A stretch of DNA of 64,000 nucleotides from Ancylobacter sp. SL191 (GTDB taxonomy: Bacteria; Pseudomonadota; Alphaproteobacteria; Rhizobiales; Xanthobacteraceae), in the NCBI RefSeq assembly GCF_026625645.1, contig NZ_CP113056.1, positions 2,083,001-2,147,000 on the forward strand, read 5' to 3'. The notes beneath the pieces were generated by a model that was not told the origin of the DNA, made no database searches, and saw only the letters and a program-made list of their open reading frames with translations. The first letter of the stretch is position 1. Every line of letters begins with the position of its first letter. A program made the position numbers and the translations under genes. Of this stretch, positions 27,921 through 45,515 are shown one piece after another.

Positions 27921-27968
27921 GCTGGAGCGGGCGAAGGGAATCGAACCCTCGTATGCAGCTTGGGAAGC
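27921..27968. repeat. Left attachment repeat (tRNA-Gly 3' fragment)
   Basis: 48 bases identical to 45468-45515. They comprise the anticodon-stem to CCA end of tRNA-Gly on the minus strand. The 5' part of the tRNA is missing here, since the sequence diverges at 27969. This is the duplicated crossover region left by site-specific integration. Confidence 0.9.
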
Positions 27969-27997
27969 CCAAGCACCGTTTGACATAGCATGACCCA

Positions 27998-28006
27998 CGT
28001 TCCCCA
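27998..28006 (-). repeat. Possible integrase arm site, left end
   Basis: Minus-strand TGGGGAACG, the same 9-mer found three times at the right end. It lies 30 bases inside the left attachment repeat and in the opposite orientation to the right-end copies. It is followed by a CGAACC/GGTTCG hairpin at 28009-28026. Confidence 0.45.
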
Positions 28007-28027
28007 CGCGAACCGAGAGAGGTTCGT

Positions 28028-28264
28028 ATGGGCAAAGCACGCAATGGGCATCACGACGCCACGAAGAGCAGGATGCACCGGAGGTTAACCGGGATCCACT
28101 CGACCCTGTCCGTGGCCGTTTATAACGGTCGGGAGCGGCTCGGAAGCGTCAAGGAATGTGCGACGGGCGGTTTCGATGCTCTGTCGCTCTCCGGCACATT
28201 GATCGGCCACTTTCCAAGCATGAAAACTGCGGCCGGTGCGGTGACCCGGGGAGCAGCGTCATGA
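28028..28264 (+). CDS. Small hypothetical protein at the element's left end
   Basis: A 78-aa basic protein. The ATG at 28028 follows a GAGAGAGG purine stretch, and its stop overlaps the ATGA start of the next gene, so it is probably the first cistron of the left module. I do not recognise the family and see no transmembrane segment. A short GRERLGSVKE stretch suggests a small beta fold, but no function can be assigned. Confidence 0.5.
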   Translation: MGKARNGHHDATKSRMHRRLTGIHSTLSVAVYNGRERLGSVKECATGGFDALSLSGTLIGHFPSMKTAAGAVTRGAAS

Positions 28265-29043
28265 GCGCTTCACTCTCTACAGCAGCCGCCGCTCTCCAAA
28301 CAGCCATTCTCTCGACGAAGCGCCAGCACCTCGATGGCATCAGCCGGGATCTATGGCGCTTGTATGCGGGCCAGCGGCTAAGCGACGACGAGGCGACGAC
28401 ACTCGACGCCTTGATCCGCAGCCGTCGCTCCTGCAGCGGTGGTGAGAGAGAAGCCGGTGTCGCTGACGATTGCGCGGCGAAGCAGGTAAAGGTGGCACTC
28501 CGGTTTCGGCCCCGCCGGGTGCAGCGCTCACCCGACAAGGAAGCCTCGCTGCGACGGCGGCGCGAGCTCTCCCGCTCCTCGCCCATGCCGCGCCATCTGG
28601 CTAGCCGCTTCACCGAGGGGCAGTGCGCCGCACTGGCCGTTATCGGTGGCGAGGTGAAGGGTCGGGGTGTGTGCGATCTGCCGCTCGACAAGATTGCCGC
28701 CCTCGCCGGCGTGTGCCGCACCACGGTGCGCAACGCCATCAACGAAGCGCGGCGGCTAGGGCTGGTGCGTGTCACCTCCCGCCCGAGGCCGGGGCAGAAG
28801 AACCTCACCAACCTGATCGAGATCCTCTCGCCCGAGTGGCGCGCCTGGCTCAAGCGCGGACCGACCGCGCACCGCCCGACAGGGTGCAAAACGGTTTCTG
28901 CGACCACGAATTTGCGCCCCACGATGAGCATAGAGATAAGAAAAGAGGCCTTCGAGGAAGCAGGTGGAGGCCGACCTCCCGGCTTTAGTGGTAGCCGCCC
29001 TAGCGGAAAGGGAGGCCGGCATGGCGTCTCCGTCCCTCAATGA
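28261..29043 (+). CDS. Helix-turn-helix protein (possible replication or control protein of the element)
   Basis: A 260-aa protein starting at the ATG at 28261, overlapping the previous stop by four bases. Residues about 140-190 form a winged helix-turn-helix: FTEGQCAALAVIGGEV, then LDKIAALAGVCRTTVRNAI and ARRLGLVRVTSRP, a pattern seen in phage and plasmid replication or control proteins. The first half is Arg-rich and poorly defined. It lies directly before the terminase genes. A role in replication or in controlling packaging genes is inference. Confidence 0.6.
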   Translation: MSASLSTAAAALQTAILSTKRQHLDGISRDLWRLYAGQRLSDDEATTLDALIRSRRSCSGGEREAGVADDCAAKQVKVALRFRPRRVQRSPDKEASLRRRRELSRSSPMPRHLASRFTEGQCAALAVIGGEVKGRGVCDLPLDKIAALAGVCRTTVRNAINEARRLGLVRVTSRPRPGQKNLTNLIEILSPEWRAWLKRGPTAHRPTGCKTVSATTNLRPTMSIEIRKEAFEEAGGGRPPGFSGSRPSGKGGRHGVSVPQ

Positions 29044-29266
29044 ACCGGCGCTGGCCGCCGTGCTGCAGGACCTGGCGGCGCGGGTCGGGCGGCTTGAGCC
29101 CTCGCACCGCGACCCCGAGGCCTTTCACGAGGCGAAGTCTGAGATCGCGGCCGCCCTCCGACGCCTGTCGCGGGTCCTCCCCACGGTCCACGTATGCGGG
29201 AGGCGACAGCGCTTGACCTCGTTAGATTTACCCGGATTTGAGCCTAAACTTAGTGGGCGGGAATGA
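29021..29266 (+). CDS. Small helical hypothetical protein upstream of terminase
   Basis: An 81-aa ORF starting at the ATG at 29021, behind a GGGAGG site five bases away. It overlaps the end of the HTH gene, and its own stop forms ATGA with the terminase small subunit start. The sequence is helical (ALAAVLQDLAARVGRLEP...AKSEIAAALRRLSRVL). I do not recognise it. The tight coupling on both sides supports translation. Confidence 0.55.
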   Translation: MASPSLNEPALAAVLQDLAARVGRLEPSHRDPEAFHEAKSEIAAALRRLSRVLPTVHVCGRRQRLTSLDLPGFEPKLSGRE

Positions 29267-29817
29267 GGGGCATCATGCAGGAATTGCAGGGCTCTACGCC
29301 CCGTCCCGGTCTCACGATTGCCGATGTCGAGACGATCTCGAAAAAGGGCTTCTCCGAGTTGCTCGGCGTGTCGCCGGGGCGTGTCTCGCAGCTCATTGCT
29401 GCCGGCCTACCGGTCGAGCCGAATGGCCGCATCCATATCGAGCGTGGCAAGGCCTGGGTGAAGGCGAATGTCGATGCGAACCGGCGCCGCTCGGTGGTCG
29501 GCGGATCGCCTTTGTTCGACACTCTATCCCCACGCGCCATGAAAGATGCGTCGGAGGCGGAAATCGCCCGCCTGCGGGCGGAGCGGATGGGCGGGGCGCT
29601 GATCGGTCGTTCGGCAGCACTGCGCACCATCGAAAGCCGGGCCCGCTTCGAACGTGATGCCTGGATCGGGTGGGTCAACCGGGCTGCGCCAGAGATCTCG
29701 GCCGCGACAGGAGCCGAGCTGGCGACGCTTGTCGCGGTAATGGATCGGCTGGTGCGAGAGCATCTGCACAGCTTGTCCTCAGTCCCCGTCGGAGGGCTCG
29801 GCCATGATGACGAGTGA
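29263..29817 (+). CDS. Terminase small subunit, Nu1-like
   Basis: A 184-aa protein. An N-terminal helix-turn-helix (KKGFSELLGVSPGRVSQLI, about residues 27-45) is followed by a basic linker and a helical C-terminal part. This matches the Nu1/gpNu1 type of DNA-recognising terminase small subunit. It overlaps the large subunit gene by 14 bases. It would recognise the packaging site of the element and recruit TerL. In a satellite, its own TerS would direct packaging of satellite rather than helper DNA. Confidence 0.7.
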   Translation: MRGIMQELQGSTPRPGLTIADVETISKKGFSELLGVSPGRVSQLIAAGLPVEPNGRIHIERGKAWVKANVDANRRRSVVGGSPLFDTLSPRAMKDASEAEIARLRAERMGGALIGRSAALRTIESRARFERDAWIGWVNRAAPEISAATGAELATLVAVMDRLVREHLHSLSSVPVGGLGHDDE

Positions 29818-31690
29818 CCTTGACCGGCTGACCGCGCAGCTGGTGGATGAGGCTTGGCGGCGCGGCCTGCGTCCCGAGCTTCAGGTTACCGTGACCGAAT
29901 GGGCGGACGCCAACCGTACCCTGCCGGGCACCAATGCCGAGCCGGGGCCGTGGCGCACGTCGCGCGTGCCCTATCTCGCCGAGATCATGGATTGCCTCTC
30001 CACGGCCTCGCCCGTCGAGCGCGTGGTGCTGATGAAGGGCGCACAGACCGGCGGTACTGAGGCCGGACTCAACGCCATCGGTTATTGGGTGGCGCATGCG
30101 CCGGGGCTGATCCTCGCCGTCTGGCCTTCCATCGACATGGTGCGCCGTAACTCGCGCACCCGCATCGAGCCGCTGATCGAGGGCACGCCCGCGCTCAGGA
30201 GCCGTATTGCTCCCGCCCGCTCCAAGGACCCCGGCAATACGGTCGGGCTGAAGGAGTTTCCCGGCGGCGCCCTCATCATGACCGGAGCCAACTCCGCCAC
30301 GGGCCTGCGCTCCACCCCGGCGCGCTACCTCGTGCTCGACGAGGTGGACGCCTTCCCGGCGGACGCCGATGGCGAAGGCGACCCGGTGGCTCTGGCTGTC
30401 CAGCGCACCGTGACCTTCCGAGGCCGGCGCAAGATCTTCCTCATTTCCACCCCGACCGAAGCCGGAGTGTCGCGGATCGAGAAGGCCTATGCCGAGAGCG
30501 ACCAGCGCCGGTTCTTCGTGCCGTGCCCGCATTGCGGCACGCACCAGGCGCTGAGCTGGCGCGGCGTGACCTGGCCGGAAGGTGAGCCGCGCAAGGCGTT
30601 CTATACCTGCGAGGCCTGCGGCGGCGTGATCGAGGAGGCCGACAAGCCGGCGATGCTCGCCAAGGGCGAATGGCGCGCCACGGCCGAGGGAGACGGGCTC
30701 ACCGCCGGCTTCCACCTCTCCGCGCTCTACTCGCCCTTTGAAAGCTGGGGCGAGATCGCTGCCGACTTCCTCACCTCGAAGCGCGACCCGGCGCGGATGA
30801 AGACATGGACCAATCTGAAGCTCGGCGAGGCCTATGAGGATCGGGATATGGCGCCGCTGGCGCCGGACAGCCTTGCGGCTCGTGGCGTCCCCTGCGATCC
30901 ACCATGGACTGAGCTTCTCCCCGAGGGTGTCGCCGCCATCACTGCCGGCGTTGATACCCAGGACGACCGCATCGAGGTGGAGTTTGTCGGCTGGGGCCGC
31001 GGCGAGGCCAGTTGGTCGCTCGACTATGACATCATCCATGGCGACACCTCGCGCCCGGAAGTGTGGGCGGCGCTCGATCGGCTTCTCGCCCGGCGCTTCC
31101 GCCACCCGAAGGCCGTTCCTGACCTTCCCGTCCTCGCCGTTGCCATCGATTCCGGCGGGCACCGCACCGACCAGGTGATGCGGTTCTCGGCCGAGCGGCT
31201 CAACCGCCGGATATGGGCGATCAAGGGGCGCGGCGGGCCGGGCGTGCCGCCCTGGCCCAAGCGCCCGCCGAAACTGCGCACTGCCAGCCTCGCCCCCGTT
31301 CACATTGTCGGCGTCGACACGCTCAAGCACGGGCTGCTCTCGCGGCTGCGCATCGACGATGGCGGCCCCGGCGCCTGCCACTGGCCGGCCGAGCGTGATT
31401 ATCACTGGTTCACCGGCCTCGTCGCCGAGCGCCCGGTGCGCCGCTACACAAAGGGCGTGGCCCGGATCGAATGGGTGCCTGACCCCGGCGTGCGCAACGA
31501 GCCGCTCGACTGCCGCGTCTACGCCACGGCTGCCCTGCATGGACTGTATGCGGCGGGCATGAGCTTGCAGGAGATGATAGCGAAGGTTGACGGAGCGGCC
31601 ACACCGACCGCAGAGTCGGCTATCGCGGGCGTCGAGGCACCTAAGGCCCCCAGCGTGCTGCGGTCGAAGTGGCTGGCAGCGCCTAGGTAG
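29804..31690 (+). CDS. Terminase large subunit, GpA family
   Basis: A 628-aa packaging motor and nuclease of the lambda gpA family, full length. The ATPase part includes MKGAQTGGTEAGLNAIGYW as the Walker-A-like region and RYLVLDEVDAFP as Walker B, followed by FLISTPT. A CPHCG...CEACGG zinc-like pair follows at about 240-275. The C-terminal nuclease region begins near AGVDTQDDRIEVE, with further acidic residues in LAVAIDSGGH. It translates out of the small subunit gene by overlap and ends just before a hairpin. It appears intact and likely functional. Confidence 0.9.
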   Translation: MMTSDLDRLTAQLVDEAWRRGLRPELQVTVTEWADANRTLPGTNAEPGPWRTSRVPYLAEIMDCLSTASPVERVVLMKGAQTGGTEAGLNAIGYWVAHAPGLILAVWPSIDMVRRNSRTRIEPLIEGTPALRSRIAPARSKDPGNTVGLKEFPGGALIMTGANSATGLRSTPARYLVLDEVDAFPADADGEGDPVALAVQRTVTFRGRRKIFLISTPTEAGVSRIEKAYAESDQRRFFVPCPHCGTHQALSWRGVTWPEGEPRKAFYTCEACGGVIEEADKPAMLAKGEWRATAEGDGLTAGFHLSALYSPFESWGEIAADFLTSKRDPARMKTWTNLKLGEAYEDRDMAPLAPDSLAARGVPCDPPWTELLPEGVAAITAGVDTQDDRIEVEFVGWGRGEASWSLDYDIIHGDTSRPEVWAALDRLLARRFRHPKAVPDLPVLAVAIDSGGHRTDQVMRFSAERLNRRIWAIKGRGGPGVPPWPKRPPKLRTASLAPVHIVGVDTLKHGLLSRLRIDDGGPGACHWPAERDYHWFTGLVAERPVRRYTKGVARIEWVPDPGVRNEPLDCRVYATAALHGLYAAGMSLQEMIAKVDGAATPTAESAIAGVEAPKAPSVLRSKWLAAPR

Positions 31691-31708
31691 CACCCAACAT
31701 AAACAAAA

Positions 31709-31739
31709 CCCCGCCGGGCTTGTTATCGCCTTGGCGGGG
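31709..31739 (+). terminator. Hairpin after terminase
   Basis: CCCCGCC (31709-31715) pairs with GGCGGGG (31733-31739) across a 17-base loop, 18 bases after the TerL stop. It probably separates the packaging transcript from the convergent cargo genes. Confidence 0.45.
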
Positions 31740-31799
31740 CTGCCCCGAAGGGTCTTGAGGCTCGACAGGCGCGCCCGCGAGCAGACGTACCCAAATTGG

Positions 31800-32231
31800 T
31801 TACTCGTCGGTTAATGTCAAGTTAACAAATCCGAGACCACGCAACACGCCCTGACGGATGCGCTCGAAATCACCCCCGGGCAGGCGGAACTCCTGATACT
31901 TACGCTTCCCGGAGACGTCCCGGCCCGTGCGGAACAGATCGAGGCGGCGGAGAGCGACGGCAGCAACCATATCGCACTTAGCCCAACATGTCGTTTGATC
32001 AAATGGAGCGGGCAAGGCAAACGGGAGTTCGAGAGCCACGACATAGGGCACATCGTGCTCGGGAGGGGTTGTCGAGAGAGGAACAACGGCGCAAAGGTTC
32101 GGGCGACGAGGAAGTTGAGGACTGATGACTACAGCCGGGCGGCGCTTCACCATTTCCGGCTCACAGAAACCGCCCATTTCGTAATCGCAAAGCAAAATCG
32201 TCCGGATTCTCGGATGATACTGAATGCCCAA
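31800..32231 (-). CDS. PemK/MazF-family toxin-like protein, no antitoxin seen
   Basis: A 143-aa protein from a TTG at 32231 with GGAGGG upstream. This start gives LGIQYHPRIRTILLCDYEM, the usual beginning of the alphaproteobacterial branch, followed by PEMVKRRPAVVISP, the conserved first motif, and CAVVPLSTTPPEH. The frame is open upstream to 32309 but without family sequence. MazF-like proteins are mRNA endonucleases. This branch carries a C-terminal extension (KYQEFRLPGGDFERIRQGV). No antitoxin ORF of typical size is visible on either side, so it may be orphaned or not an active toxin. It opens the cargo block of the element. Confidence 0.72.
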   Translation of the reverse strand: MGIQYHPRIRTILLCDYEMGGFCEPEMVKRRPAVVISPQLPRRPNLCAVVPLSTTPPEHDVPYVVALELPFALPAPFDQTTCWAKCDMVAAVALRRLDLFRTGRDVSGKRKYQEFRLPGGDFERIRQGVLRGLGFVNLTLTDE

Positions 32232-32446
32232 GAAATTTTTCCCTCCAGCCGAATCGCTCGACGAGGACGTTATTATATAAGTTCCGGAGCCATCGGTCTG
32301 GCGCCTCAAAGTGACATGTGGATCGACGCGCTACATTGATAAAAAACGGCCATCGATGACAGCAGGCAACGTGCCGAAAAAAGGACTATGATGCCCACTT
32401 GAACACCGATTCATCCGAACGGTGCTGGTAAGTTCTTTATAGTAGA

Positions 32447-36070: not shown

Positions 36071-36124
36071 GCGGCATCCCAACATCGGGTTCCGCAGTAA
36101 CGAAATTGGCGTCTGTCGCCAGCC

Positions 36125-36532: not shown

Positions 36533-36637
36533 CGCCCGCCCCTTAGCCGCATCCTGACTCCTCGCTATTCTCTGCTGTGAGAATTACGTCATTGGCTTGA
36601 TGTACGTACCTGGCTATCTGCGCTCGGTGCTTTAACG

Positions 36638-37519
36638 TTACTCTGGTGATATCGCCGTCCCGGACTGATCGATTGGATCCTTGATCGCGCTTGCAAGCCG
36701 GTCGGCTGCTGCGAGAATTTCTGCCGCCCGCTCAAGGCTTTCATGATCAACCTCAGCACTTTTTAGCGACTTCTGCAGTTCCGCTAGCAAAGCGTCTTCC
36801 AGTTGTTCTATCAAAAAAGGCAGTCCTGACGCTCCAAAATCATCGACGAACGCGGCGTACTGAGGGGCGGCAGATTTAACTAGATCGAGCATGGGCTGAG
36901 GATCAGCAAGGATTTTTTTGCCTGCACCGCTGCGCATAGCAGCAAGCTGAGCTGGAGCATAACTTAGCACTGAACTGTAGGCGGAGTATAATGCCCAGAC
37001 CAATGGCGGAACGAATGGCCGCTCTGTCTGAGGCCATTCATGATCATTTAATTTATCGAGACCCGACGATTTCCAAATTATTTCAGCAAACTGACGCGCT
37101 TTGTCACCGTCGATGTCTGAACGTTCCGACGCCTCAAGCATAGGATCGGCTTTAATACGCTCCATCATCTTAGATGCTGTCTTTAGGTGGCTCTTTTTAA
37201 CAGCAGAAGTCCAAACTTTCTCTAATACTTCAAAGCGGCGCTTATCGAGCGCGGCATATCGGCTTGCGAGGCCTGACAAAGCGCCACTCCGAAGCGCGGC
37301 GATCTGATCTCCTTTTGCCCTAAGTTCCGCTCGAAGATTTTCCTCTTCTTTACGGAGGTCTGCACGAATATTTTCGATACGAACATCAAATTTATGTTGT
37401 ATAGATTTTTCAATTTTGGCCTTATAGTAAATACTAAAAACCCAGGCAGCCGCGCTACTAATCATCGTCGGGGTTAAAATGTGAATCAATTCTGTGGAAA
37501 GCCATTCGCTTACTAACAT
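36638..37519 (-). CDS. Membrane-anchored coiled-coil hypothetical protein
   Basis: A 293-aa protein with one N-terminal transmembrane segment (about residues 12-32) followed by a charged coiled coil (RIENIRADLRKEEENLRAELRAKG, about 47-70) and a mostly helical soluble part. I do not recognise the family. Its start overlaps the stop of the upstream XRE regulator by seven bases, so it is transcribed with the regulator and could be expressed in the integrated state. Codon use and composition look AT-richer than the packaging genes. A superinfection-exclusion or defence role is possible but unproven. Confidence 0.6.
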   Translation of the reverse strand: MLVSEWLSTELIHILTPTMISSAAAWVFSIYYKAKIEKSIQHKFDVRIENIRADLRKEEENLRAELRAKGDQIAALRSGALSGLASRYAALDKRRFEVLEKVWTSAVKKSHLKTASKMMERIKADPMLEASERSDIDGDKARQFAEIIWKSSGLDKLNDHEWPQTERPFVPPLVWALYSAYSSVLSYAPAQLAAMRSGAGKKILADPQPMLDLVKSAAPQYAAFVDDFGASGLPFLIEQLEDALLAELQKSLKSAEVDHESLERAAEILAAADRLASAIKDPIDQSGTAISPE

Positions 37520-37737
37520 TTCCTTAGCCTCACGCCGACACCCCCTCCATTCTCAGCGATGAATTCGACGCCTGCAACCTCCAGCGCGCGCTGTATGGCC
37601 TCCACTGTGCGGGGTTTCAGCTCCTCGCCGGCCTCAAACCGCACGATGGTGTCGTGTGATACGCCCGCCAGGGCGGCCAAGTCCCGCACTGTCAGGCCGA
37701 GCGCGGCACGTGCCATCTTGGACTGAATGGCGATCAA
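37513..37737 (-). CDS. XRE-family regulator (candidate repressor of the element)
   Basis: A 74-aa helix-turn-helix protein: MARAALGLTVRDLAALAGVS, then HDTIVRFEAGEELKPRTVEAI, a classic XRE fold with recognition helix. I take the TTG at 37737 because AGGAG lies six bases upstream; the frame is open further but without family sequence. It is divergent from the early small genes, and a perfect 11-bp inverted repeat lies between them. That makes it the likely maintenance regulator. It overlaps the downstream coiled-coil gene. Confidence 0.75.
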   Translation of the reverse strand: MIAIQSKMARAALGLTVRDLAALAGVSHDTIVRFEAGEELKPRTVEAIQRALEVAGVEFIAENGGGVGVRLRKC

Positions 37738-37748
37738 AACTGACTCCT

Positions 37749-37796
37749 GTTCAGAATCTGATTGACGTTCAGAAAATACTCCGGCATTTTCTGAAC
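37749..37796. promoter_or_regulatory. Operator cluster between the XRE regulator and early genes
   Basis: GTTCAGAAAAT (37767-37777) and ATTTTCTGAAC (37786-37796) form a perfect 11-bp inverted repeat around an 8-base spacer. A further half-site, GTTCAGAA, lies at 37749-37756, next to the regulator's ribosome site. This arrangement fits autoregulation and control of the divergent early promoter. Confidence 0.7.
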
Positions 37797-37827
37797 ATTG
37801 ATCAGTTTCTACCACAGGAGCACGCGC

Positions 37828-38271
37828 ATGGGCATCCATGTTCGCGAACACCCGAACTCTGTCCGCAGATTCGAGATGATCGAGACAACAGCGCTGCGAC
37901 GCCGGATGGAGCGCGCGGTCGAGGCCCTCCTCGCCGCACTCGATGACATGGATGGAGATCCTGACCTCGAAGATGCCGATCCCGCAGAAATGGATGACTT
38001 TCCGGAGGAAGATGACCCTCCCGGCGGCGATGTCGTCGACGAGCCGCATGACGCGGACACGTTCACCGACCTGATCGCGGATCAGGATGCAGCCGAGCTG
38101 CTTCAGGATGAGCTCTGGTTCGCGGAGCGCATGGATCTGACGCGAAACGAGCGCCGCGACGCCAGCAACGCCACGCTGCAGGCGCTTGCCAAAGTTACCG
38201 GGCGTTCCTTCGGATCCTTGCACTGCCCGATGCAGAACTTTCAGCCGACTAGTAAGGAGACCAGACCATGA
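37828..38271 (+). CDS. Acidic hypothetical protein, first early gene
   Basis: A 147-aa protein starting at the ATG at 37828 with AGGAG eight bases upstream. A helical basic segment (IETTALRRRMERAVEALLAAL) is followed by a strongly acidic stretch (residues about 45-90, rich in Asp and Glu) and an amphipathic end. It lies directly behind the operator and overlaps the next gene by four bases. The acidic patch could mimic DNA or bind a basic partner, but no family is recognised. Confidence 0.55.
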   Translation: MGIHVREHPNSVRRFEMIETTALRRRMERAVEALLAALDDMDGDPDLEDADPAEMDDFPEEDDPPGGDVVDEPHDADTFTDLIADQDAAELLQDELWFAERMDLTRNERRDASNATLQALAKVTGRSFGSLHCPMQNFQPTSKETRP

Positions 38272-38690
38272 ACCGGCGCGATGTTGTTCATAGCGGTCTC
38301 ATTGCGGCTACCGTTTTGGCTGTCCCCGCGGTCTGCTTGTTGACGCCTCACGGCGGGCGCCTGCGAAGCGACGCGCCCGATCCCATCTTCGCCGCTATCG
38401 CCGAGCATAAGCGGCTCTGGGCTGATGTTCAGGCCTGCGACACCACGCGTGACGGGGAAGAGCGCCTCGGCGAGCTGGTGACCGAAGCTGATTGGTACTT
38501 CGAGTGCATGATCGGGACCGTCCCCACCACGCTCGCGGGCATGCTGGCACTGGTCTCCTATGTTCATCAGGCCAATCCCGGTCTGCCGCTGGGTGTTCAT
38601 GACGCGGACGATGGCGGCACCTGGGAAGACCTCTTCCTCGCCACGCTCAAGGCGAGTCTGTCGAGCATGGTGACGGAGGTGCGGGTATGA
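38268..38690 (+). CDS. Hypothetical protein of the early operon
   Basis: A 140-aa protein with an N-terminal leader-like segment (MNRRDVVHSGLIAATVLAVPAV), so it may be membrane-attached or exported, perhaps by the Tat route. The soluble part contains AIAEHKRLWADVQAC and EADWYFECMIGTVPTT, motifs I associate with small rhizobial prophage proteins without known function. It overlaps both neighbours by ATGA junctions, so translation is coupled. Confidence 0.6.
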   Translation: MNRRDVVHSGLIAATVLAVPAVCLLTPHGGRLRSDAPDPIFAAIAEHKRLWADVQACDTTRDGEERLGELVTEADWYFECMIGTVPTTLAGMLALVSYVHQANPGLPLGVHDADDGGTWEDLFLATLKASLSSMVTEVRV

Positions 38691-39082
38691 GCACAGAACC
38701 CGTTGCCTCGGTGCGCCTCTCCTCCAGCCGGCGCCAGGCGCTTTGCCTTGGCGCGGCCTTTGTCGCGATGCCGGCGGGCACCGCCACCCTAAAGCCAGCC
38801 CCGGCGTCAATGGTGGCGCCCCTCTCGCCGCAGGAGCACATTGCACGGGCGGTGCGCGAGATCGAGGTGGCGCTGGCCGAGATCTATCCCGGCGCCTGTC
38901 AGAACCCGATCGTGCATCTGCCGGATCCCGAGGTTTTCGCCTCGATGGTCTTTCCCGATGGAACCTTCTCCCCCGGTCGGATGGCCATGGTGTCTGTCAC
39001 CGCTAATTCGTTCAGCGCTCTCTTTGACGCCGGGCTCAAGAGCCGATCCTCTAACGACTGGTTCGGCAGGGGGGCGGCATGA
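38687..39082 (+). CDS. Hypothetical protein of the early operon
   Basis: A 131-aa protein with an N-terminal Arg-Arg and hydrophobic segment (SSRRQALCLGAAFVAMPAG), resembling a Tat leader or membrane anchor. The rest is a short mixed fold (HIARAVREIEVALAEIYPGA; MVFPDGTFSPGRMAMVSV). I do not recognise it. Four-base overlaps with both neighbours indicate a translated member of the early operon. Confidence 0.55.
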   Translation: MSTEPVASVRLSSSRRQALCLGAAFVAMPAGTATLKPAPASMVAPLSPQEHIARAVREIEVALAEIYPGACQNPIVHLPDPEVFASMVFPDGTFSPGRMAMVSVTANSFSALFDAGLKSRSSNDWFGRGAA

Positions 39083-39465
39083 GCGGCGACCTTTTCGGAC
39101 AAGCGGTGCCGACCGAAGTTCTTCTCTCGCCACATCTGCGGCTTGAGAGGGTGCCGAGCGACACCATGGAGCCGACGCTGCGCGGCGGCTGGGACTATGT
39201 GTTGGTGCGGCCCTGCACGAAGTATGAGGGCGAGGGCATCTATCTCGTCGGTAACCCCTTCGGCAGCTGGGATCTCAGGCGGGCGTCGAACGTGCTCGGT
39301 GGCAGGGAGCAGATACGGCTCACCGTCGACAACAAGCATTATGGCGATCGTCTGGTGTCGGCCGACTGGTTCGATGAGAACGTGCTCGCATTGGTGGTCG
39401 CTGATGTGAAGATCAGAGATCAGCGTCTGCTGGAAGCCACGTGCCGGCATGGGAGGGCGGCATGA
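39079..39465 (+). CDS. S24/LexA-like fold protein with altered catalytic pair
   Basis: A 128-aa protein that reads like the catalytic half of S24 peptidases (LexA/CI C-terminal domain) without a DNA-binding half. VPSDTMEPTLRGGWDYVLV corresponds to the usual GDSMEPTL...GDxVLV, and GIYLVGNPFGSWDLRRAS to the lysine-containing strand. The catalytic Ser is Thr and the Lys position appears to be Arg, so it is probably not a protease. It may act as a partner or decoy for a repressor. It is coupled to both neighbours by overlapping start and stop codons. Confidence 0.6.
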   Translation: MSGDLFGQAVPTEVLLSPHLRLERVPSDTMEPTLRGGWDYVLVRPCTKYEGEGIYLVGNPFGSWDLRRASNVLGGREQIRLTVDNKHYGDRLVSADWFDENVLALVVADVKIRDQRLLEATCRHGRAA

Positions 39466-39701
39466 GCGCGTCCAGTCCCTTCGTTCCCCACCTCTGCACT
39501 TTCTGCGGCCTCCCTTGGGATGCGGTTGGCTTGATGGTGACGGGGCCAAACAATCAGGCGATATGCGATGGATGCATTCGGCTTTGCTGGCTCATCCGCG
39601 AAGGTCGAAGGTCCGATGACATGATCGCGCGCTTGCGCCGATGGAACGAGGCGATTTCGAAGGCTCCGAGTTTGCCTCCGAAATCGCCTTGGTTGCGATG
39701 A
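39462..39701 (+). CDS. Small protein with ClpX-type C4 zinc finger
   Basis: A 79-aa protein starting at the ATG at 39462 inside the stop of the previous gene. CTFCGLPWDAVGLMVTGP followed by ICDGCI has the two CxxC pairs and spacing of the ClpX zinc-binding domain, which recruits substrates and adaptors to ClpXP. No ATPase part is present. It could be a stand-alone adaptor or decoy for ClpXP, for instance acting on repressors, but that is inference. Confidence 0.65.
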   Translation: MSASSPFVPHLCTFCGLPWDAVGLMVTGPNNQAICDGCIRLCWLIREGRRSDDMIARLRRWNEAISKAPSLPPKSPWLR

Positions 39702-39931
39702 TCGGTCATATCGTGGATTCGCAGTGACAGGGTGCCAAGCACCGCGGCAGCGAGGAGAGCGGCGGACGGTGAAGCCACCCATGCTCGGCTGGAGACTAAC
39801 CAGCGCGCGAGGATCCCACAGACGTAGGCCGTCCAGCTCCCAACGTTTCCCGCCGAGCACAAAAATAGAACGTGATACTTCCCACGCATCAAAATTCGTG
39901 TTATCCATCTCGATAACGTGGGAGGCATCAC

Positions 39932-40444
39932 ATGGTTGGTCAGCGCATTACTATCGACCGCGAGGCTTTCAGTGCTGCCGAGGTGGAGGCCATCACCGGC
40001 ATCTCCCAGATCGTGCTGCGTGACTGGCGCCGCCGCAAGTTCCTCAAGACCAAGATCGTCAGCAACCGTGCGCTCTATTACGCCTATGACCTCGGTTATC
40101 TGATGGCGCTGCAAGCGCTTACCTCGCAGGGCGTGGCAGTCGGCACAGCCACTATGGCGGCTGGAACGGCGGGTCCAATGATTGAGCATTTCGCCGAGGC
40201 GGTTAGCGTCCCGCCAGCCGACGCTCCCTTGGTCGGCTTCCATGGCAACCGCACCGCCCGCTTCCTGATCGTTGCCCAGGATGGCGAGATCGTTCGCGCC
40301 GGCTTCCTGGAAGACTGGGTGAAGATGCGTGACGAGTGCGGCAAGGCGGCCTCAGCCATCGTGATCGACTGCAAGGCTCTCGGCGAGCAGATCGCGCAGA
40401 AGGCGCCGCGTCCGGTGGTCTCCGTCAAGCGTGAGAGCGAGTGA
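39932..40444 (+). CDS. MerR-like helix-turn-helix regulator
   Basis: A 170-aa protein. The N-terminal helix-turn-helix FSAAEVEAITGISQIVLRDW followed by RRRKFLKTK looks like a MerR-type DNA-binding domain. The C-terminal part (FLIVAQDGEIVRAGFLEDW, IVIDCKALGEQIA) is a small beta-alpha domain. It follows a 230-base gap after the early genes, and its stop overlaps the portal gene start. A late-gene activator role is plausible. The ATG at 39932 has GGGAGG upstream. Confidence 0.65.
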   Translation: MVGQRITIDREAFSAAEVEAITGISQIVLRDWRRRKFLKTKIVSNRALYYAYDLGYLMALQALTSQGVAVGTATMAAGTAGPMIEHFAEAVSVPPADAPLVGFHGNRTARFLIVAQDGEIVRAGFLEDWVKMRDECGKAASAIVIDCKALGEQIAQKAPRPVVSVKRESE

Positions 40445-41844
40445 TGAGCGGCATGTTCTCCTCCCTCCTCAAGCGTGCCACGGGTGGCTGGCGCACGTGG
40501 AGCCGCTCCTATGAGGGCGCGGCGACAGGCCGGCGCACGGGCGGCTGGGGCGCGATGCGCAACCAGCACGGCGCGGCGCAGGCGGCGCGGGCGCCGACCA
40601 GCTATCGCGCCCGCTATCTGGTGGCGAACAACCCGCACGGCGCCGCCGGCAAGGCGGCTTGGGCGGCGGCTCTGGTCGGCACGGGCATCGTCCCGGCCGT
40701 GACCGGCGACGTATCGGCGCGCTGGACGGCGTGGACGGACGAGGCGGACGCCGACGGCCTGATGGACTTCTATGGTCTCACCGCGCTGATGGTCGGCGGC
40801 ATGGTGGTAGATGGCGAGGCGCTGGCGCTGCTGATTGCCACCCCGGCCGGCCTGCGTATTCGCGTGCTCGATCCCGACCAGCTCGACGCTTCGCTCACCC
40901 GCCCGCTCCCCGAGGGCGGGCGCATCGTCAACGGCGTGGAGTTCGATATGTTCGGCTCCCGCGTCGCCTACTGGATCGTGAAGGAGCGCCCCGAGATCGG
41001 CCTCGGCTTGAACCTTCAGCCCGTGCGCGTGCCTGCCGAGGATGTGGTGCATCTGTTCCGCCCGGACTTCCCCGGCCAGGTGCGCGGCGTCTCTTGGTTC
41101 GCCCCGGCGATCCTGCGCCTCGCCGAGCACGACGAGTGGCACGGCGCCCAGCTCACCCGCCAGAAGGTCGGCGCCCTGCTCGCCGGCCTCATCACGACCA
41201 ACGATGCCACCCTTCCCTTTGGTGGGGAGGCCCAGGGCGATGCGCTTATCGGTTCGCTGGAGCCGGGCGCCATGGTGGTGCTGCCGCCGGGCAAGGACGT
41301 GACCTTCTCCAACCCGCCAGCCATCGCGCAGGAGGCGAACGACTTCGCCCGCATTACCCTGCACGAGATCGCCGCCGCCCTCGGCCTGCCCTATGAGGTA
41401 CTCACCGGCGACCTCTCCAGCGTCAACTATTCCTCGATCCGTGCCGGCCTCGTCGAGTGGCGTCGCCGGGTGGAGATGATCCAGCACAACGTCATCGTCT
41501 TCCAGGCGCTGCGCCCCATCTGGCGCCGCTGGGCGATGATCGAGAGCCTGCAGGGCCGGCTTGCCGCCCGCCCGCAGGACCTTCTCCCGGTGCGCTGGAT
41601 CACGCCAAAGCAGCAATGGGTGGACCCGGCCAAGGACGTGCAGGCGGAGATCGACGCCATCAACGCCGGGCTGATGAGCCGCCGCGAGGCCGTGGCAGCG
41701 CGTGGCATGGATGTCGGCGCGCTTGATGATGAGATTGCCGCTGACAAGGCCCGCGAGGCGCGCCTCGGCCTTGCCTTCAGCACGCCCGCCAAGGCGGCGC
41801 CCGCCGCCCCGGCAAAGGCGCCCATTGAGGAGACCGTGGCATGA
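40444..41844 (+). CDS. Phage portal protein, lambda family
   Basis: A 466-aa portal protein that forms the dodecameric DNA gate of the capsid. It contains YRARYLVANNPHGAAGKAAW near residue 55, VRVPAEDVVHLFRPDFPGQV (about 195-215) and YEVLTGDLSSVNYSSIRAGL (about 318-337), all typical of lambda gpB-like portals. The C-terminal Ala/Pro tail is normal. It follows the MerR-like gene by an overlap and precedes the protease-capsid gene with another. It is intact. Confidence 0.9.
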   Translation: MSGMFSSLLKRATGGWRTWSRSYEGAATGRRTGGWGAMRNQHGAAQAARAPTSYRARYLVANNPHGAAGKAAWAAALVGTGIVPAVTGDVSARWTAWTDEADADGLMDFYGLTALMVGGMVVDGEALALLIATPAGLRIRVLDPDQLDASLTRPLPEGGRIVNGVEFDMFGSRVAYWIVKERPEIGLGLNLQPVRVPAEDVVHLFRPDFPGQVRGVSWFAPAILRLAEHDEWHGAQLTRQKVGALLAGLITTNDATLPFGGEAQGDALIGSLEPGAMVVLPPGKDVTFSNPPAIAQEANDFARITLHEIAAALGLPYEVLTGDLSSVNYSSIRAGLVEWRRRVEMIQHNVIVFQALRPIWRRWAMIESLQGRLAARPQDLLPVRWITPKQQWVDPAKDVQAEIDAINAGLMSRREAVAARGMDVGALDDEIAADKAREARLGLAFSTPAKAAPAAPAKAPIEETVA

Positions 41845-43673
41845 GCGCCCCTGCTGAGATCTTCACCCGCCGCGCGCCGCTCCCCGCGTCCTCTTGGGAC
41901 GCGGACAGCCAGACGTTCGAGGCTGTGCTCTCGACCGGCGCCGCTGTCGAGCGCTGGGACGTGCACGGTCCCTATGACGAGATCCTCCTCCTGTCGCAGC
42001 CGATGTGGCCCGCCCGTGTGCCCCTGCTCGACAGCCACGGAAGGGAGAGCGTGGATCGCCAGCTCGGGAGCGTCGACACGCTGCGCGTCGTCGGCGGGGA
42101 CCTCCTGGGGCGCGCCACGCTCTCCCGCCACAATCCCCGCTCCCAGCGCATTGCCGCCGAGCTGACGGACGGTGCCACCTTCGGCATCTCCATCGGCTAC
42201 GCCGTCGAGCGCTGGTCGGAGCGTACCAATGCGAAGACCGGTCGCCGCGAGAAGGTGGCCGAGCGCTTCACCCTGATCGAGGCGAGCCTCGTCGTTGTCC
42301 CCGCCGACCCGCATGCAGGCATCAGGAGCCACGACATGACGGTCAGCACCGAGCCGGCGAACCCGCCCGCTCCCTCCGCCCCGGCGCCCGCGCCGTCCCT
42401 CAACCCGCCGGCCGCCACTGAGCGCGCGGCCATCAATCTGGAGATCCGTTCCATCGCAAGCGTCGCCGGTCTCGATCAGGGCTGGATCGACAGCCAGATC
42501 GACGCCAATGCCACCACGGACGCGGCCCGTGCCGCCGCCTTCGCCGCCATGCAGACCCGCAGCGCGCCGCTGCAGACGATCCGGCCGACGGTGGCGACGG
42601 TCACCCACGACCACACCGACCCTGCCGCGATCCGCTCCGCCATGGGCGAAGCGCTCGCCCATCGCCTCGCCCCCGGCCGCGTGAAGCTGGAAGGGCGCGC
42701 CCGCGCCTATGCCGGCTTCCGCATGCTGGACATGATCGGCGACCTCGCCCAGGCGCGCGGCGAGCGCCTCAACCTGCGCGACCAGAATGCGCTGATGGAG
42801 CGTGCCGTCGGCGCTCACTCCACCAGCGACTTCCCCCTTCTGCTGGCGGACGCGGCCAACAAGGCCCTTCTCGCCAACTACGCCGCAGCCGAACCGACCT
42901 ATCGCCTGATCGCTGCCCGGCGCGGATTCACCGACTTCCGCGATCACGCCTTCCTGCGCATCGGTGACTTCCCGACGTTTCAGGAGACCAGCGAGGCTGG
43001 CGAACTGCGTTACGGCACGATCTCCGAGAACCGCGAGAAGGTGCGGGCGAAGGAACTGAATGCCGGCATCGCCATCGGCCGCCGCGCTCTCATCAATGAC
43101 GACCTCTCGGCGCTGGCGGACTTCTCCGCCCTCATCGCCATCCGTGCCGCCAGCGACGAGAACGCCCGCGTCTACGGCCTTCTCGCCACCAATGCCGCCC
43201 TCTCCGACGGCAAGGCGCTGTTCCATGCCGACCACGGCAACGTAGCCACCCTCGCCGTCGCTCTCTCGCTCTCCGGGCTCTCGCTCGCTGTCGCCTCCCT
43301 GCGCAAGCAGCGCAGCCTCGACGGCGTGCCGCTCAACCTCGCCCCCCGCTTCCTCGTGGTTGGGCCGGACACCGAGCTTGGCGGCCGCCAGATCCTCGCC
43401 GCCGTCACTGCCACCAAGGCGGGTGACGTGAACCCGTGGGCGGGCACGATGGAGCTGGTGGTGGACGCCAATATCGTCGGCAATGCCTGGTACGTTGTGG
43501 CTGACCCCGCAGCCGCCCCCAGCCTCGTCTATGGCTATGTCTCCGGCGCCGAGGGGCCGCAGATCCGCACCGAGATCGACTTCGATACCCGCGCCGTCAA
43601 GGTCGCGGCCGGGCTCGACTTCGGCTGCGGCGTCATCGACTTCCGCGGCCTCTACAAGAATGAGGGCGCGTGA
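41841..43673 (+). CDS. Prohead protease-major capsid protein fusion
   Basis: A 610-aa fusion. Residues 1-160 are an HK97-type prohead protease: PLLDSHGRESVDRQLGSVD with the likely catalytic His, then TFGISIGYAVERW with the Ser. An Ala/Pro linker (about 165-195) follows. The C-terminal part from about residue 200 is a HK97-fold capsid protein: FRDHAFLRIGDFPTFQETSE, then GIAIGRRALINDDLSAL and WYVVADPAAAPSLVYGYV. Fused protease and shell proteins are known in some phages and self-cleave during head maturation. No separate scaffold gene is seen. Confidence 0.88.
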   Translation: MSAPAEIFTRRAPLPASSWDADSQTFEAVLSTGAAVERWDVHGPYDEILLLSQPMWPARVPLLDSHGRESVDRQLGSVDTLRVVGGDLLGRATLSRHNPRSQRIAAELTDGATFGISIGYAVERWSERTNAKTGRREKVAERFTLIEASLVVVPADPHAGIRSHDMTVSTEPANPPAPSAPAPAPSLNPPAATERAAINLEIRSIASVAGLDQGWIDSQIDANATTDAARAAAFAAMQTRSAPLQTIRPTVATVTHDHTDPAAIRSAMGEALAHRLAPGRVKLEGRARAYAGFRMLDMIGDLAQARGERLNLRDQNALMERAVGAHSTSDFPLLLADAANKALLANYAAAEPTYRLIAARRGFTDFRDHAFLRIGDFPTFQETSEAGELRYGTISENREKVRAKELNAGIAIGRRALINDDLSALADFSALIAIRAASDENARVYGLLATNAALSDGKALFHADHGNVATLAVALSLSGLSLAVASLRKQRSLDGVPLNLAPRFLVVGPDTELGGRQILAAVTATKAGDVNPWAGTMELVVDANIVGNAWYVVADPAAAPSLVYGYVSGAEGPQIRTEIDFDTRAVKVAAGLDFGCGVIDFRGLYKNEGA

Positions 43674-43885
43674 TGGCGGGCGTTGATGTCCTTCAGGAGC
43701 GCCTGGAGAAACTGAGAGCTGCGCGGGCGACGGGTATCCGTCGCCTGCGCTACTCGGACGGTAAGGAGCATGAGTATCGCACTGATGCTGAACTTGCCGC
43801 CGCCATCGCCGACCTAGAACGCCAGATCGCCGGGGCAAATGCCCCGGCGAAGGTCGTCTATTTCTCCTCCAGCAAAGGGCTGTGA
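43673..43885 (+). CDS. Head-tail joining protein, gpW-like
   Basis: A 70-aa protein, the size of lambda gpW. The pattern LQERLEKLRAARATGIRRLR, YRTDAELAAAIADLERQIAG and a C-terminal SSSKGL matches small head-tail joining proteins that close the portal and offer a tail-docking surface. The ATG at 43673 overlaps the capsid stop. It is the last morphogenesis gene; no tail gene follows, so tails would have to come from another phage. Confidence 0.75.
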   Translation: MAGVDVLQERLEKLRAARATGIRRLRYSDGKEHEYRTDAELAAAIADLERQIAGANAPAKVVYFSSSKGL

Positions 43886-43888
43886 AAG

Positions 43889-44152
43889 ATGGGCGCGCGG
43901 AAGATCAATCCCGTCACTTCGCAGGGTCTCTTTCCCTCCGAGGCCGAGATCGCGCGTCGCCTCAGTCAGGACCCGCGCGGGTGGACGGCCAAGGCCACCA
44001 TGCTGGAGCGCGAGGGTCTGCCCCGCGTCGACCCCATTATGGGTGGGCGCTTTTGGCCGGCCGTTCTTGCCTTCTGGAATCGTCGCTACGGCCTCTCTAC
44101 CGTTCAGGCGTCTCAACCTGACGGAGAGGAGAACCTTGATGCACTCCGCTGA
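43889..44152 (+). CDS. Small winged-helix-like protein beside the integrase (candidate excisionase)
   Basis: An 87-aa protein. LFPSEAEIARRLSQDPRGWTAK followed by LEREGLPRVDPIMGGRFW resembles small HTH/excisionase-like proteins that bind DNA beside phage integrase genes. It overlaps the integrase start by 14 bases and begins 3 bases after the gpW-like gene. Excisionase function is inferred from position and size. Confidence 0.55.
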   Translation: MGARKINPVTSQGLFPSEAEIARRLSQDPRGWTAKATMLEREGLPRVDPIMGGRFWPAVLAFWNRRYGLSTVQASQPDGEENLDALR

Positions 44153-45383
44153 TCTCGATGCGCCCGGCCTGAAGCGCCGGCATAATAAAGACGGCACTAC
44201 CCGGTTTAGCTGGGTGGCCCGCAGCGATATCGCCAAAGCTGGTTACGAACCGAAGACTGTTCGCCTGCACTATAACCTCGACGACCCGCGCGAGCGTCTT
44301 CTCGCCGAGGCCATGTGCCGCAAGCTGCAGGCGGAGATGCTGGCCTGGCGTGCCGGGCACCGGCAGACCCGCCGGCCGTTCGACGGCACGGTTTCGAGCC
44401 TCGTGCGACTTTATCAAACCGACGAAGCCTCGCCATATTTCGAGCTAAAGCATAACACGCGGGAGACCTACGATCAGGTGCTCCGCGTGATCGACCGCGC
44501 TTTCGGCAAGCGCGTCCTGTCCAATCTCGCCCTGGCCGACTTCCGCCGCTGGTACGAGGAGGCGAAGAAGCCGCGCGAGCCGGACGGCCCGGAGCGCGTG
44601 CGCAAGGCGCACGGCATCATCAGCATGTTCCGGCGCTTGTTCGCCTATGGCATCGCGGCCGAGCACGCGGGTTGCGCCCGGCTCGCCAGCATTCTCGACG
44701 CCACCCGGTTCAAGCAATCCAAGCGGAGGCGTATCCGCCTAGAACGACACCATGTTGAGGCTTTCATCCCCAAGGCGATCGAGGCCGGACGGCTCTCCCT
44801 CGCGCTGGGCACGGCACTGCAGTTCGAGACGGGCATGCGGCAGAAGGACGTGATCGGTGAGTGGGAGCCGCACGTCGCCCGCTCGGAGATCGGCGGCATC
44901 ATGCTCAAGGGCAAGCGCGGCCGGCGCATGCTGCGCTGGGCGAACGGCCTGACCTGGGCGGACCTCGCCAACACCTCCGTGTTCACCAAGGAGACAACCA
45001 AAACCGGCGCGCTCGTGTCGCATGACCTCTCGCTGTGCCCGATGACGGCGGCGCTGCTGGCGAAGGTGCCGGCGGCAGCGAAGGTCGGGCCGCTCATCAT
45101 CGACGAGCACGCCCGCCGCCCCTACGCCAAGGATGCCTATGCCCGCGAGTGGCGTGTGATCGCCCGCGCCGCAGGGATCCCGGACGAGGTGTGGAACATG
45201 GACGCCCGCGCAGGCGCCATCACAGAGGCCGAGGACGCCGGCGCCGATCTCGATGAGATCCGTGGTGCCATCGGCCATACACAGGCTTCCACGACGGCCC
45301 GCTACTCGCGCGGCGCCGTGGGCAAGAGCCGCAAGGTTGCCGAGCTTCGGCAGGCGCATCGCGCCGGCCGGAACGAGTCGTAA
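44139..45383 (+). CDS. int: Tyrosine-type site-specific integrase
   Basis: A 414-aa phage integrase. The N-terminal arm- and core-binding domains run to about residue 200. The catalytic part has FETGMRQKDVIG (first Arg), the lysine turn in FTKETTKTG, MDARAG (second Arg, with Met where the usual His of HxxR would be), AIGHTQ (Gly-His) and TTARYSR with the nucleophilic Tyr. The ATG at 44139 is preceded by GGAGAGGAG; the longer frame from 43839 is spurious. It lies 84 bases from the right attachment repeat, as usual for tRNA-targeting elements. Confidence 0.9.
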   Translation: MHSADLDAPGLKRRHNKDGTTRFSWVARSDIAKAGYEPKTVRLHYNLDDPRERLLAEAMCRKLQAEMLAWRAGHRQTRRPFDGTVSSLVRLYQTDEASPYFELKHNTRETYDQVLRVIDRAFGKRVLSNLALADFRRWYEEAKKPREPDGPERVRKAHGIISMFRRLFAYGIAAEHAGCARLASILDATRFKQSKRRRIRLERHHVEAFIPKAIEAGRLSLALGTALQFETGMRQKDVIGEWEPHVARSEIGGIMLKGKRGRRMLRWANGLTWADLANTSVFTKETTKTGALVSHDLSLCPMTAALLAKVPAAAKVGPLIIDEHARRPYAKDAYAREWRVIARAAGIPDEVWNMDARAGAITEAEDAGADLDEIRGAIGHTQASTTARYSRGAVGKSRKVAELRQAHRAGRNES

Positions 45384-45390
45384 ACAGACA

Positions 45391-45420
45391 TGGGGAACGC
45401 GATGGGGAACGTGGGGAACG
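45391..45420 (+). repeat. Three direct 9-mers, possible integrase arm sites
   Basis: TGGGGAACG occurs at 45391-45399, 45403-45411 and 45412-45420, between the integrase stop and the attachment repeat. An inverted copy lies at 27998-28006 inside the left end. Short repeats on both arms of the attachment region are typical of Int or Xis binding sites. Confidence 0.5.
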
Positions 45421-45443
45421 TGTAGTTCAGCGGTAGGGCGGCA

Positions 45444-45464
45444 AACCGTTGGTTCGTAACGGTT
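45444..45464 (+). terminator. Hairpin after the integrase, next to a tRNA-like D-arm sequence
   Basis: AACCGTT (45444-45450) pairs with AACGGTT (45458-45464) around GGTTCGT. Just upstream, TAGTTCAGCGGTAG (45422-45435) resembles a tRNA D-arm, similar to the D-arm of the host tRNA-Gly. It probably ends integrase transcription; the tRNA likeness may be a remnant. Confidence 0.4.
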
Positions 45465-45467
45465 GGC

Positions 45468-45515
45468 GCTGGAGCGGGCGAAGGGAATCGAACCCTCGTA
45501 TGCAGCTTGGGAAGC
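45468..45515. repeat. Right attachment repeat within tRNA-Gly
   Basis: 48 bases identical to 27921-27968, covering the tRNA-Gly from the anticodon stem to the CCA end. The tRNA is complete at this side, so integration preserved the gene. Confidence 0.9.

Follow-up and report, generated by a model that had tools for sequence, protein, structure and literature searches.

A tail-less, head-encoding island at tRNA-Gly in Ancylobacter sp. SL191, probably a capsid-forming phage satellite

The window analysed here is a 64,000-nt stretch of the genome of Ancylobacter sp. SL191 (Xanthobacteraceae; RefSeq assembly GCF_026625645.1, contig NZ_CP113056.1, positions 2,083,001 to 2,147,000 of the forward strand), numbered from its first letter. 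It contains an element of about 17.5 kb that, by its sequence, is a site-specifically integrated island encoding an integrase, a repressor, a two-part lambda-type terminase (TerS and TerL), a portal, a protease-capsid fusion and a head-tail adaptor (Table 1). A model that had seen only the letters and their open reading frames (ORFs) had proposed that the element is a capsid-forming phage satellite, which makes its own small heads and takes tails from a helper phage; we call this the original prediction. The genome that holds the window, G000 below, is a single contig of 4,654,763 bp.

The element is bounded by perfect 48-bp direct repeats spaced 17,547 bp apart, the right one falling within tRNA-Gly(CCC), an intact minus-strand gene (45470-45543). 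Allowing up to three mismatches, the repeat is present in all 30 Ancylobacter genomes, once in 27 and twice in three (G000, G019 and G029). In G015 one repeat copy is flanked by sequence that aligns with the two window flanks at 85-95% identity; this is a precise empty site, and the insertion is therefore precise. Repeats, tRNA call and empty site thus agree with the attachment sites that had been proposed from the letters alone.

The integrase, TerS, TerL, portal, protease-capsid and gpW-like assignments of the original prediction are all backed by Pfam or PHROG family matches, and its XRE regulator with operator by Pfam matches and a perfect inverted repeat beside the gene. The coupling of the morphogenesis genes that it described is also borne out: the overlap is 14 nt for TerS and TerL, 4 nt for portal and capsid, and likewise 4 nt for capsid and gpW with a gpW start at 43670 (the simple gene finder used for the gene maps starts it at 43673; this finder misses cargo genes, and cargo ORFs are listed separately). 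Beyond the XRE, MerR, zinc-finger and weak S24 matches, the short regulatory proteins have no confident family in Pfam or PHROG. In the S24-like protein the position that we take to be the nucleophile is Thr in the window and Ser in a sister element. The acidic ORF divergent from the XRE gene, for which we coin the label RegC, has profile matches in 13 of 198 family genomes. The ORF just before the integrase gene, looked at as an AlpA candidate, has no Pfam or PHROG match. As to replication, among the window ORFs scanned with Pfam and PHROG none matches a primase (nor an HNH endonuclease), and a winged helix-turn-helix (wHTH) protein with weak similarity to replication initiators occupies the place where some sister elements, such as G000b, have a primase. 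Homologues of this protein occur in L165, L166 and G023h.

Table 1. Features of the element in window coordinates.
Feature	Position	Strand	Evidence
attL, 48-bp direct repeat, 3′ part of tRNA-Gly	27921..27968		Perfect repeat; single copy at G015 empty site
Winged helix-turn-helix protein, phrog_15967	28156..29043	+	PHROG match; weak replication-initiator similarity, phrog_270 0.0046
Small conserved ORF upstream of terS	28964..29266	+	74% homologue in G023; 3′ part conserved
Candidate cosN site (TATGCGGGAGGCGACAGCGC...), predicted packaging start	29193..29225	+	Conserved block upstream of terS
TerS, Nu1-like; start 29263 or 29275	29263..29817	+	phrog_57, 1.4e-19
TerL, lambda gpA type	29804..31690	+	PF05876 3.7e-94, PF20454 6.8e-84
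PemK/MazF-like protein (cargo)	31800..32309	-	PF02452, phrog_15698
DSR2-type SIR2 protein, 1,207 aa (anti-phage cargo)	32447..36070	+	PADLOC Dsr2 5.5e-129
Cargo protein without assigned function, 135 aa	36125..36532	-	70% homologue in G023
Cargo protein, 293 aa, no confident family	36638..37519	-	Pfam/PHROG scans
XRE repressor; TTG start inferred from relatives	37513..37737	-	PF13560, PF01381; 49-79% homologues in sister elements
Operator-like perfect 11-bp inverted repeat, 37767-37777/37786-37796	37767..37796		Lies between the XRE and RegC genes
RegC, conserved acidic ORF divergent from XRE; start inferred	37828..38271	+	Alignment and profile
Small conserved regulatory-block protein	38268..38690	+	Homologues in sister elements
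Small conserved regulatory-block protein	38687..39082	+	Homologues in sister elements
S24-like protein (weak)	39079..39465	+	phrog_4 0.0017; 63-71% homologues
ClpX-type zinc-finger protein	39441..39701	+	PF06689
MerR-like helix-turn-helix protein directly upstream of portal	39932..40444	+	PF13411
Portal, lambda B family; start 40441 or 40444	40441..41844	+	PF05136 1.3e-89, phrog_21
Prohead protease-major capsid fusion	41841..43673	+	phrog_4523 6.5e-154, PF25209
gpW-like head-tail adaptor Ad1	43670..43885	+	phrog_2545 1.7e-15
Putative excisionase (function inferred from position)	43889..44152	+	76-84% homologues beside same integrase
Tyrosine integrase, 414 aa	44139..45383	+	phrog_1 3.6e-21; homologues 84% L165, 98% L166, 93% L134
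attR inside intact tRNA-Gly(CCC)	45468..45515		Perfect repeat and tRNA call

Twenty window ORFs were scanned with Pfam and PHROG and none matched a tail or lysis family, as had been predicted. The scans were widened to the seven structurally intact elements of this type described below. Among 57 of their non-core proteins (a set leaving aside head and terminase genes, integrases, primases, wHTH, XRE, RegC and large defence proteins), 21 PHROGs were matched and none is a tail family; they comprise one head decoration and one Ad1 adaptor family (both fit G015), a MazF-like family, a protease-type zinc finger and otherwise families of no known function. A larger set of 115 proteins from the same elements, which omits five capsids and one portal spanning two stretches and several very small ORFs, matched 117 PHROGs, with no tail family among the best 25. 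Six-frame ORFs of at least 150 bases from the six intact elements other than the window gave no match at 1e-3 to a query set of 22 annotated proteins, nearly all tail, taken from the tail regions of three phages; as a control, the same phage tail proteins do match four complete prophages.

Capsid matches were found in 34 of 151 genomes. Loci with the order of the window (TerS-TerL-cargo-regulators-portal-capsid-gpW-integrase) number 11, in 8 of the 30 Ancylobacter genomes, with two in the genome of the window; a further locus, G004, is a capsid fragment only and is excluded from this count. Seven are structurally intact (the window, G000b, G023, G019a, G022a, G008a and G015) and no tail gene was recognised in any; G002, with a TerL fragment, and G019b, with neither TerS nor TerL, look decayed; G013a and G013b are cut by contig ends, with C24 and C35 as the probable contigs of their terminase halves. 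The loci lie at tRNA-Gly, -Phe, -Arg or -Leu genes wherever a tRNA call was made, and where both ends are set they measure about 13.6-18.0 kb. The sister element in the same genome, G000b, occupies tRNA-Phe, with 16.7 kb between 39-bp repeats; it spans the contig end and start, its portal gene reading through the junction. It matches the window element at 63% identity in TerS, 93% in TerL, 93% in portal, 95% in capsid and 97% in gpW, and carries another integrase, other cargo and, at its left end, a primase (phrog_239) with homologues in further sister elements. As in the window, a single small ORF separates gpW from the integrase gene.

A second type, with related heads and an integrase near one end, is represented by R2 in the genome of the window and by G016, G009, G008b and G013c. 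These loci encode a tape-measure protein and one or two other tail-class proteins; neither blast with a local reference set nor the selected PHROG scans picked up a tube, sheath or tip. R2 (G000:C1:3260259-3274700, L007-L008), with its tape-measure gene on the opposite strand to the head module, is a second kind of predicted head-making element in this genome. Similar tail-poor arrangements occur in Stappia (L050), in a Pleomorphomonas metagenome-assembled genome (L056, where the capsid frame is broken), in a Paracoccus yeei locus (L051) and in G079, G103, G072 and G161; no integrase was seen in G103, and in G072 and G161 the tape-measure gene lies between TerS and TerL.

At the tRNA-Gly site of the window itself we find two elements of a third type, L165 in G029 (16.5 kb) and L166 in G019 (17.2 kb). 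Their integrases and their excisionase-like, wHTH, XRE and regulatory proteins are related to those of the window, whereas the head set is of HK97 type: L166 has portal, protease, capsid, adaptor, TerS and TerL of this kind, and L165 has an HNH gene. The original prediction had suggested looking for the same gene order at tRNA-Gly with different cargo; such elements exist, mostly at other tRNA genes, while the two other tRNA-Gly elements carry a different head module. An IMG/VR viral contig, L134, has an integrase 93% and a capsid 70% identical to those of the window. The HK97-type capsid (at least 58% identity) is found at 15 loci in 12 of the 30 Ancylobacter genomes. At least eight of the 15 encode a tape-measure protein by PHROG (L166 10103-12046, L234 15097-17448, L242 15015-17009, L247 14460-16409, L251 15083-17029, and others); in addition, a tail-assembly chaperone is encoded in L166, a neck protein and a member of a ‘tail protein’ family in G000c, and a tail terminator in G026h. 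Local blast (the G014 locus being cut by a contig end, and full scans not having been made) recognised no tube or tip among them. G000c lies in the genome of the window at tRNA-Met (G000:C1:2626507-2641991, L180) and combines HK97-type heads with a short tape-measure protein. Excerpts from PMC10448857 already describe putative Escherichia coli satellites that encode a tape-measure protein. Taken as a union, window-, R2- and HK97-type loci are present, at least one per genome, in 17 of the 30 Ancylobacter genomes.

Complete siphoprophages with related genes are present in G013, G022, G014 and G007. Satellites and such lambda-like prophages seem to co-occur. Their TerL, gpW, portal and capsid are homologous to those of the window at about 29-43% identity, and their tube, tail chaperone and tape-measure proteins match annotated proteins of phage RcDormio. 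In the complete relatives looked at, whose capsids are less than 45% identical to that of the window, the order is TerS-TerL-gpW-portal-capsid-tail. The gpW gene precedes the portal in the four siphoprophages and in the annotations of RcDormio, Psul1 and yong2, and follows the capsid in the satellites. Maximum likelihood on 43 capsids (40 different) gives a midpoint-rooted tree with long branches, in which 18 rows are grouped with 100/100 support: the Ancylobacter loci of window and R2 type together with the viral contigs L136 and L137. None of the 18 is shown to be a tailed phage, L137 being a 5.3-kb contig too short to judge. Window and R2 types are mixed inside the group, and G015 sits with R2 and G008b.

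Alignment of the region upstream of terS reveals a conserved block, from which we predict a cos site. The 20-mer TATGCGGGAGGCGACAGCGC occurs at 29193-29212 without mismatch and is the sole match in the window at up to three mismatches, where 0.12 matches are expected and 12 of 100 shuffles had one. It is identical in G000b. Variants precede terS in G008a, G023 and G022a as well as on the two G013 contigs that hold satellite terminase genes; all four complete siphoprophages have one by their own terminase genes. Five of the seven intact elements have the motif; in G015 it is degenerate, and G019a has no pattern match. The 20-mer is identical in the G013 phage and both G013 satellite-terminase contigs, and differs between the G022 phage and satellite. 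At up to one mismatch the pattern gave 15 real matches against 12 in a backward-read control, whose mismatches were not itemised. All 10 zero-mismatch sites map by terminase genes, that of the G014 phage 4.6 kb from its TerS; of the five one-mismatch sites, that of the G022 phage is the one placed on the map. Likeness to the lambda end, out of 27 positions, is 18 for the window, 20 for G000b, 19 for G008a and 20 for the G013 phage. This resemblance alone is not significant and proves nothing, and for this reason our confidence in a satellite is slightly lowered and the case for a deleted prophage slightly raised; candidacy of the site rests on its conservation and place. The motif common to satellites and siphoprophages points to the siphoprophage lineage as another helper class or as ancestor.

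Might the element then be a cryptic prophage, a deletion derivative of a lambda-like siphophage that has lost its tail genes? In favour, the cos-like motif and homologous TerL, gpW, portal and capsid genes are found in the Ancylobacter siphoprophages too, and two sister loci are visibly decayed. Yet those homologues are distant over their length, gpW stands before the portal rather than after the capsid, and the capsids fall in a separate group. The window element has neither the order of its tailed relatives nor recognised tail remnants, both of which a cryptic lambda-like prophage would have. Tail-less elements recur, moreover, at four tRNAs with different integrases and cargo. The original prediction had named what would make the element a deletion derivative, a full-length prophage of the same order with a tail module between gpW and integrase; we sought one and found none, and no locus with a capsid at least 60% identical showed a full tail module, some of these loci (G013a, G013b and IMG/VR contigs) being cut by contig ends. 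R2-type loci, with their tape measure and one or two further tail-class genes, are among those compared at this threshold. Head genes compared between the window and other loci have low ratios of nonsynonymous to synonymous differences (pN/pS), 0.10-0.25 for TerL (seven pairs), 0.18-0.40 for portal and 0.21-0.50 for capsid (eight pairs each), which indicates that they evolved under purifying selection. Since the decayed loci are low too, the ratio speaks for long-term selection and not for the present state of each copy. Gene order, capsid group and the multiplicity of tail-less elements led us to reject the deletion derivative, which we now consider unlikely; together with low pN/pS they fit the earlier description of the element as not an obviously decayed prophage.

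The terminase and capsid modules are, as predicted, separated by a cargo and control region, the cargo slot lying between TerL and the regulators. Its content differs element by element and often has matches in PADLOC, which includes candidate systems; selected ORFs were scanned and several have no match. PADLOC matches, two of them weak, are present in nine of the 10 cargo blocks of window type: DSR2 in the window, Drt8 in G000b, Drt6 and PDC-S06 in G002, type IIG restriction in G008a, Dsr1 in G022a, PDC-M07A and AbiJ in G015, PD-Lambda-1 in G023, a weak ThsA-like match in G019a and a weak partial Tmn on G013 contig C24. The one cargo ORF scanned in G019b has none. Among five HK97-type elements scanned, G012, G001, L165 and G085 (from another genus) have matches and L166 has none. 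We considered whether tail genes could hide in this variable middle and rejected the idea: the cargo differs per element and is mostly defence.

The DSR2 homologue of the window matches PADLOC Dsr2 over residues 14-926. It has a SIR2 domain with catalytic Asn and His: N131 and H168 align (numbering counted by hand) with N133 and H171 of Bacillus subtilis DSR2, the catalytic residues named in excerpts from PMC10981675. According to the same excerpts, B. subtilis DSR2 is activated by monomeric tail-tube protein and destroys NAD+ upon binding this phage protein. Both proteins share the SIR2 domain with its two catalytic residues, whereas the window protein is longer (1,207 aa against about 1,005 aa) and has no sequence match to the solved DSR2 structure outside the SIR2 region. 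By analogy, the window homologue may sense a tail tube. The PemK/MazF-like gene at 31800-32309 lies beside DSR2 with no obvious antitoxin partner.

Frequent defence cargo would also suit a defence island sitting on a domesticated head module, or a packager resembling a gene transfer agent (GTA), that does not package itself. The element has its own att sites, integrase and repressor, and near-identical head genes stand at several tRNA sites in unlike neighbourhoods, all of which argues for a mobile element; we regard this alternative as improbable. A GTA is a vertically inherited cluster without integrase or att sites, and the integrase and att sites of the element led us to rule out a GTA proper. 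What looks like one lies elsewhere in the same genome (G000:C1:4389700-4401600), with an HK97-like capsid about 36% identical to that of L166 and a tail-tip gene (PF13550) about 10 kb away; its capsid type is found in most of the 30 Ancylobacter genomes. That the element is a self-sufficient small phage with tail genes too divergent to recognise is very improbable, several small proteins without family notwithstanding, given that the 21 PHROGs of the 57 non-core proteins include no tail family and that a slot differing between elements cannot hold conserved tail genes.

Where might tails come from? The tail-class genes found in the genome of the window belong to a Mu-like myophage (R3), to the GTA-like cluster and, as tape measures, to R2 and G000c. 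R3 (G000:C1:3387000-3427300) is an apparently complete myophage with sheath, tube and tape measure, and provides the sole sheath match found in this genome. Its adaptor type is present in 3 of the 30 Ancylobacter genomes. In G015 the satellite adaptor, which replaces the usual gpW, is 57% like that of R3, and the same genome holds an R3-type adaptor 99% identical to that of R3 (G015:C1:4515123-4515353 and 1155326-1155598). This hints that satellites may change the docking part to fit the available tails.

The closest described elements are the capsid-forming phage-inducible chromosomal islands (cf-PICIs), which in excerpts from PMC10690885, PMC10803314, PMC11389934 and PMC10448857 are integrated islands with TerS, TerL, portal, protease, capsid and connectors and no tail. 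Like them, the window element has an integrase with att sites, its own TerS and TerL, its own capsid, protease, portal and head-tail connector, and no tail or lysis genes in the scans run; its size is similar (17.5 kb against a mean of 14 kb in excerpts from PMC10803314). It differs in its lambda gpA-type terminase, in a capsid that is a protease-capsid fusion (phrog_4523), in the splitting of terminase and capsid modules by a cargo slot, and in its alphaproteobacterial host; cf-PICIs are listed in Gammaproteobacteria and Firmicutes groups in the excerpts from PMC10803314, and called widely distributed across Bacteria in excerpts from PMC10690885. Two genes named for cf-PICIs in these excerpts, HNH (PMC10690885) and the Pri-Rep initiator (PMC10448857), have no match in the window; HNH is present in the sister L165 and a phrog_239 primase in G000b. 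The mode of life would match that of cf-PICIs (PMC10690885, as excerpted), and strict membership is not claimed because HNH and a Pri-Rep initiator were not found in the window element. Of the HK97-type sisters, L165 and L166 share integrase and regulators with the window and, with the HK97 set and adaptor of L166 and the HNH gene of L165, resemble cf-PICIs in gene content; the type differs from the window in head module and often has a tape measure.

More distant parallels are the Vibrio satellite-plasmids cf-PISP and PISP, which according to excerpts from PMC13230959 are likewise head-making and tail-less, though kept as plasmids and with capsids of PF05065 or PF03864 rather than of the fusion type, and the Streptomyces satellites MulchRoom and MiniFlayer. 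The latter, compared by description in excerpts from PMC10690885, have their own capsid and terminase, and MulchRoom is thought to use a helper tail; they differ in having virulent-phage helpers and terminal-repeat genomes. A check of the literature on capsid-forming satellites and Ancylobacter prophages, mostly at the level of listings, yielded no paper evidently describing such alphaproteobacterial elements.

We conclude, with a probability of about 0.82, that the element is an alphaproteobacterial variant of the cf-PICI type: a capsid-forming phage satellite with heads of its own making and tails taken from a helper. The proposal of a Hyphomicrobiales version is supported by tail-less kin, gene order and capsid group; particle formation and use of a helper's tail are inferred. 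In this satellite, entry or induction of a helper phage would relieve the XRE block and the island would excise. As it has no recognised primase of its own, unlike some sister elements, the machinery of the helper or the host would replicate it. TerS and TerL would cut at the island's own cos, its own, probably smaller, heads would be filled with the unit-length 17.5-kb genome, the gpW-like adaptor would presumably dock helper-made tails, and helper lysis would free the particles. In the integrated state the island would protect its cell through the cargo slot, which lies between terminase and regulators and here holds DSR2. A satellite without a tail tube cannot itself trigger DSR2, which would thus act against tailed competitors, provided that it ignores the tube of the helper.

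Several observations weigh on the other side. The satellite is known here from its genes, with no excision, particle, packaging or helper observed. No complete lambda-like prophage was found in the genome of the window, the gpW of the window is not of the R3 adaptor type, and DSR2 could hinder the element's own helper. Two of the 11 window-type loci look decayed, and as these too have low pN/pS, the ratio does not exclude recent decay. The likeness of the candidate cos to lambda (18 of 27) is reached at five places in the element, and the 115-protein tail test covers only 25 of the 117 matched families.

A broader picture, which we offer tentatively and think may well prove wrong, is of one chassis (integrase, XRE, RegC and defence slot) that wears interchangeable, independently acquired heads of lambda or HK97 type. 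Its tail-docking part would be swapped to suit local tails, the tape measures of several members would set the length of tails built from a helper's tube, and the DSR2 of the window would kill any cell invaded by a tailed competitor with a tube unsuited to the element's head.

The DSR2 cargo poses a puzzle, namely how an element that steals tails can be armed against tails. The adaptor swap in G015, with the matching phage adaptor in the same genome, amounts to a natural experiment on how a satellite head picks its tail. As read here, the family would extend the capsid-forming satellite lifestyle to the Alphaproteobacteria; its terminase and capsid are of other types, it has a candidate cos site, and its heads may be exchanged on one chassis.

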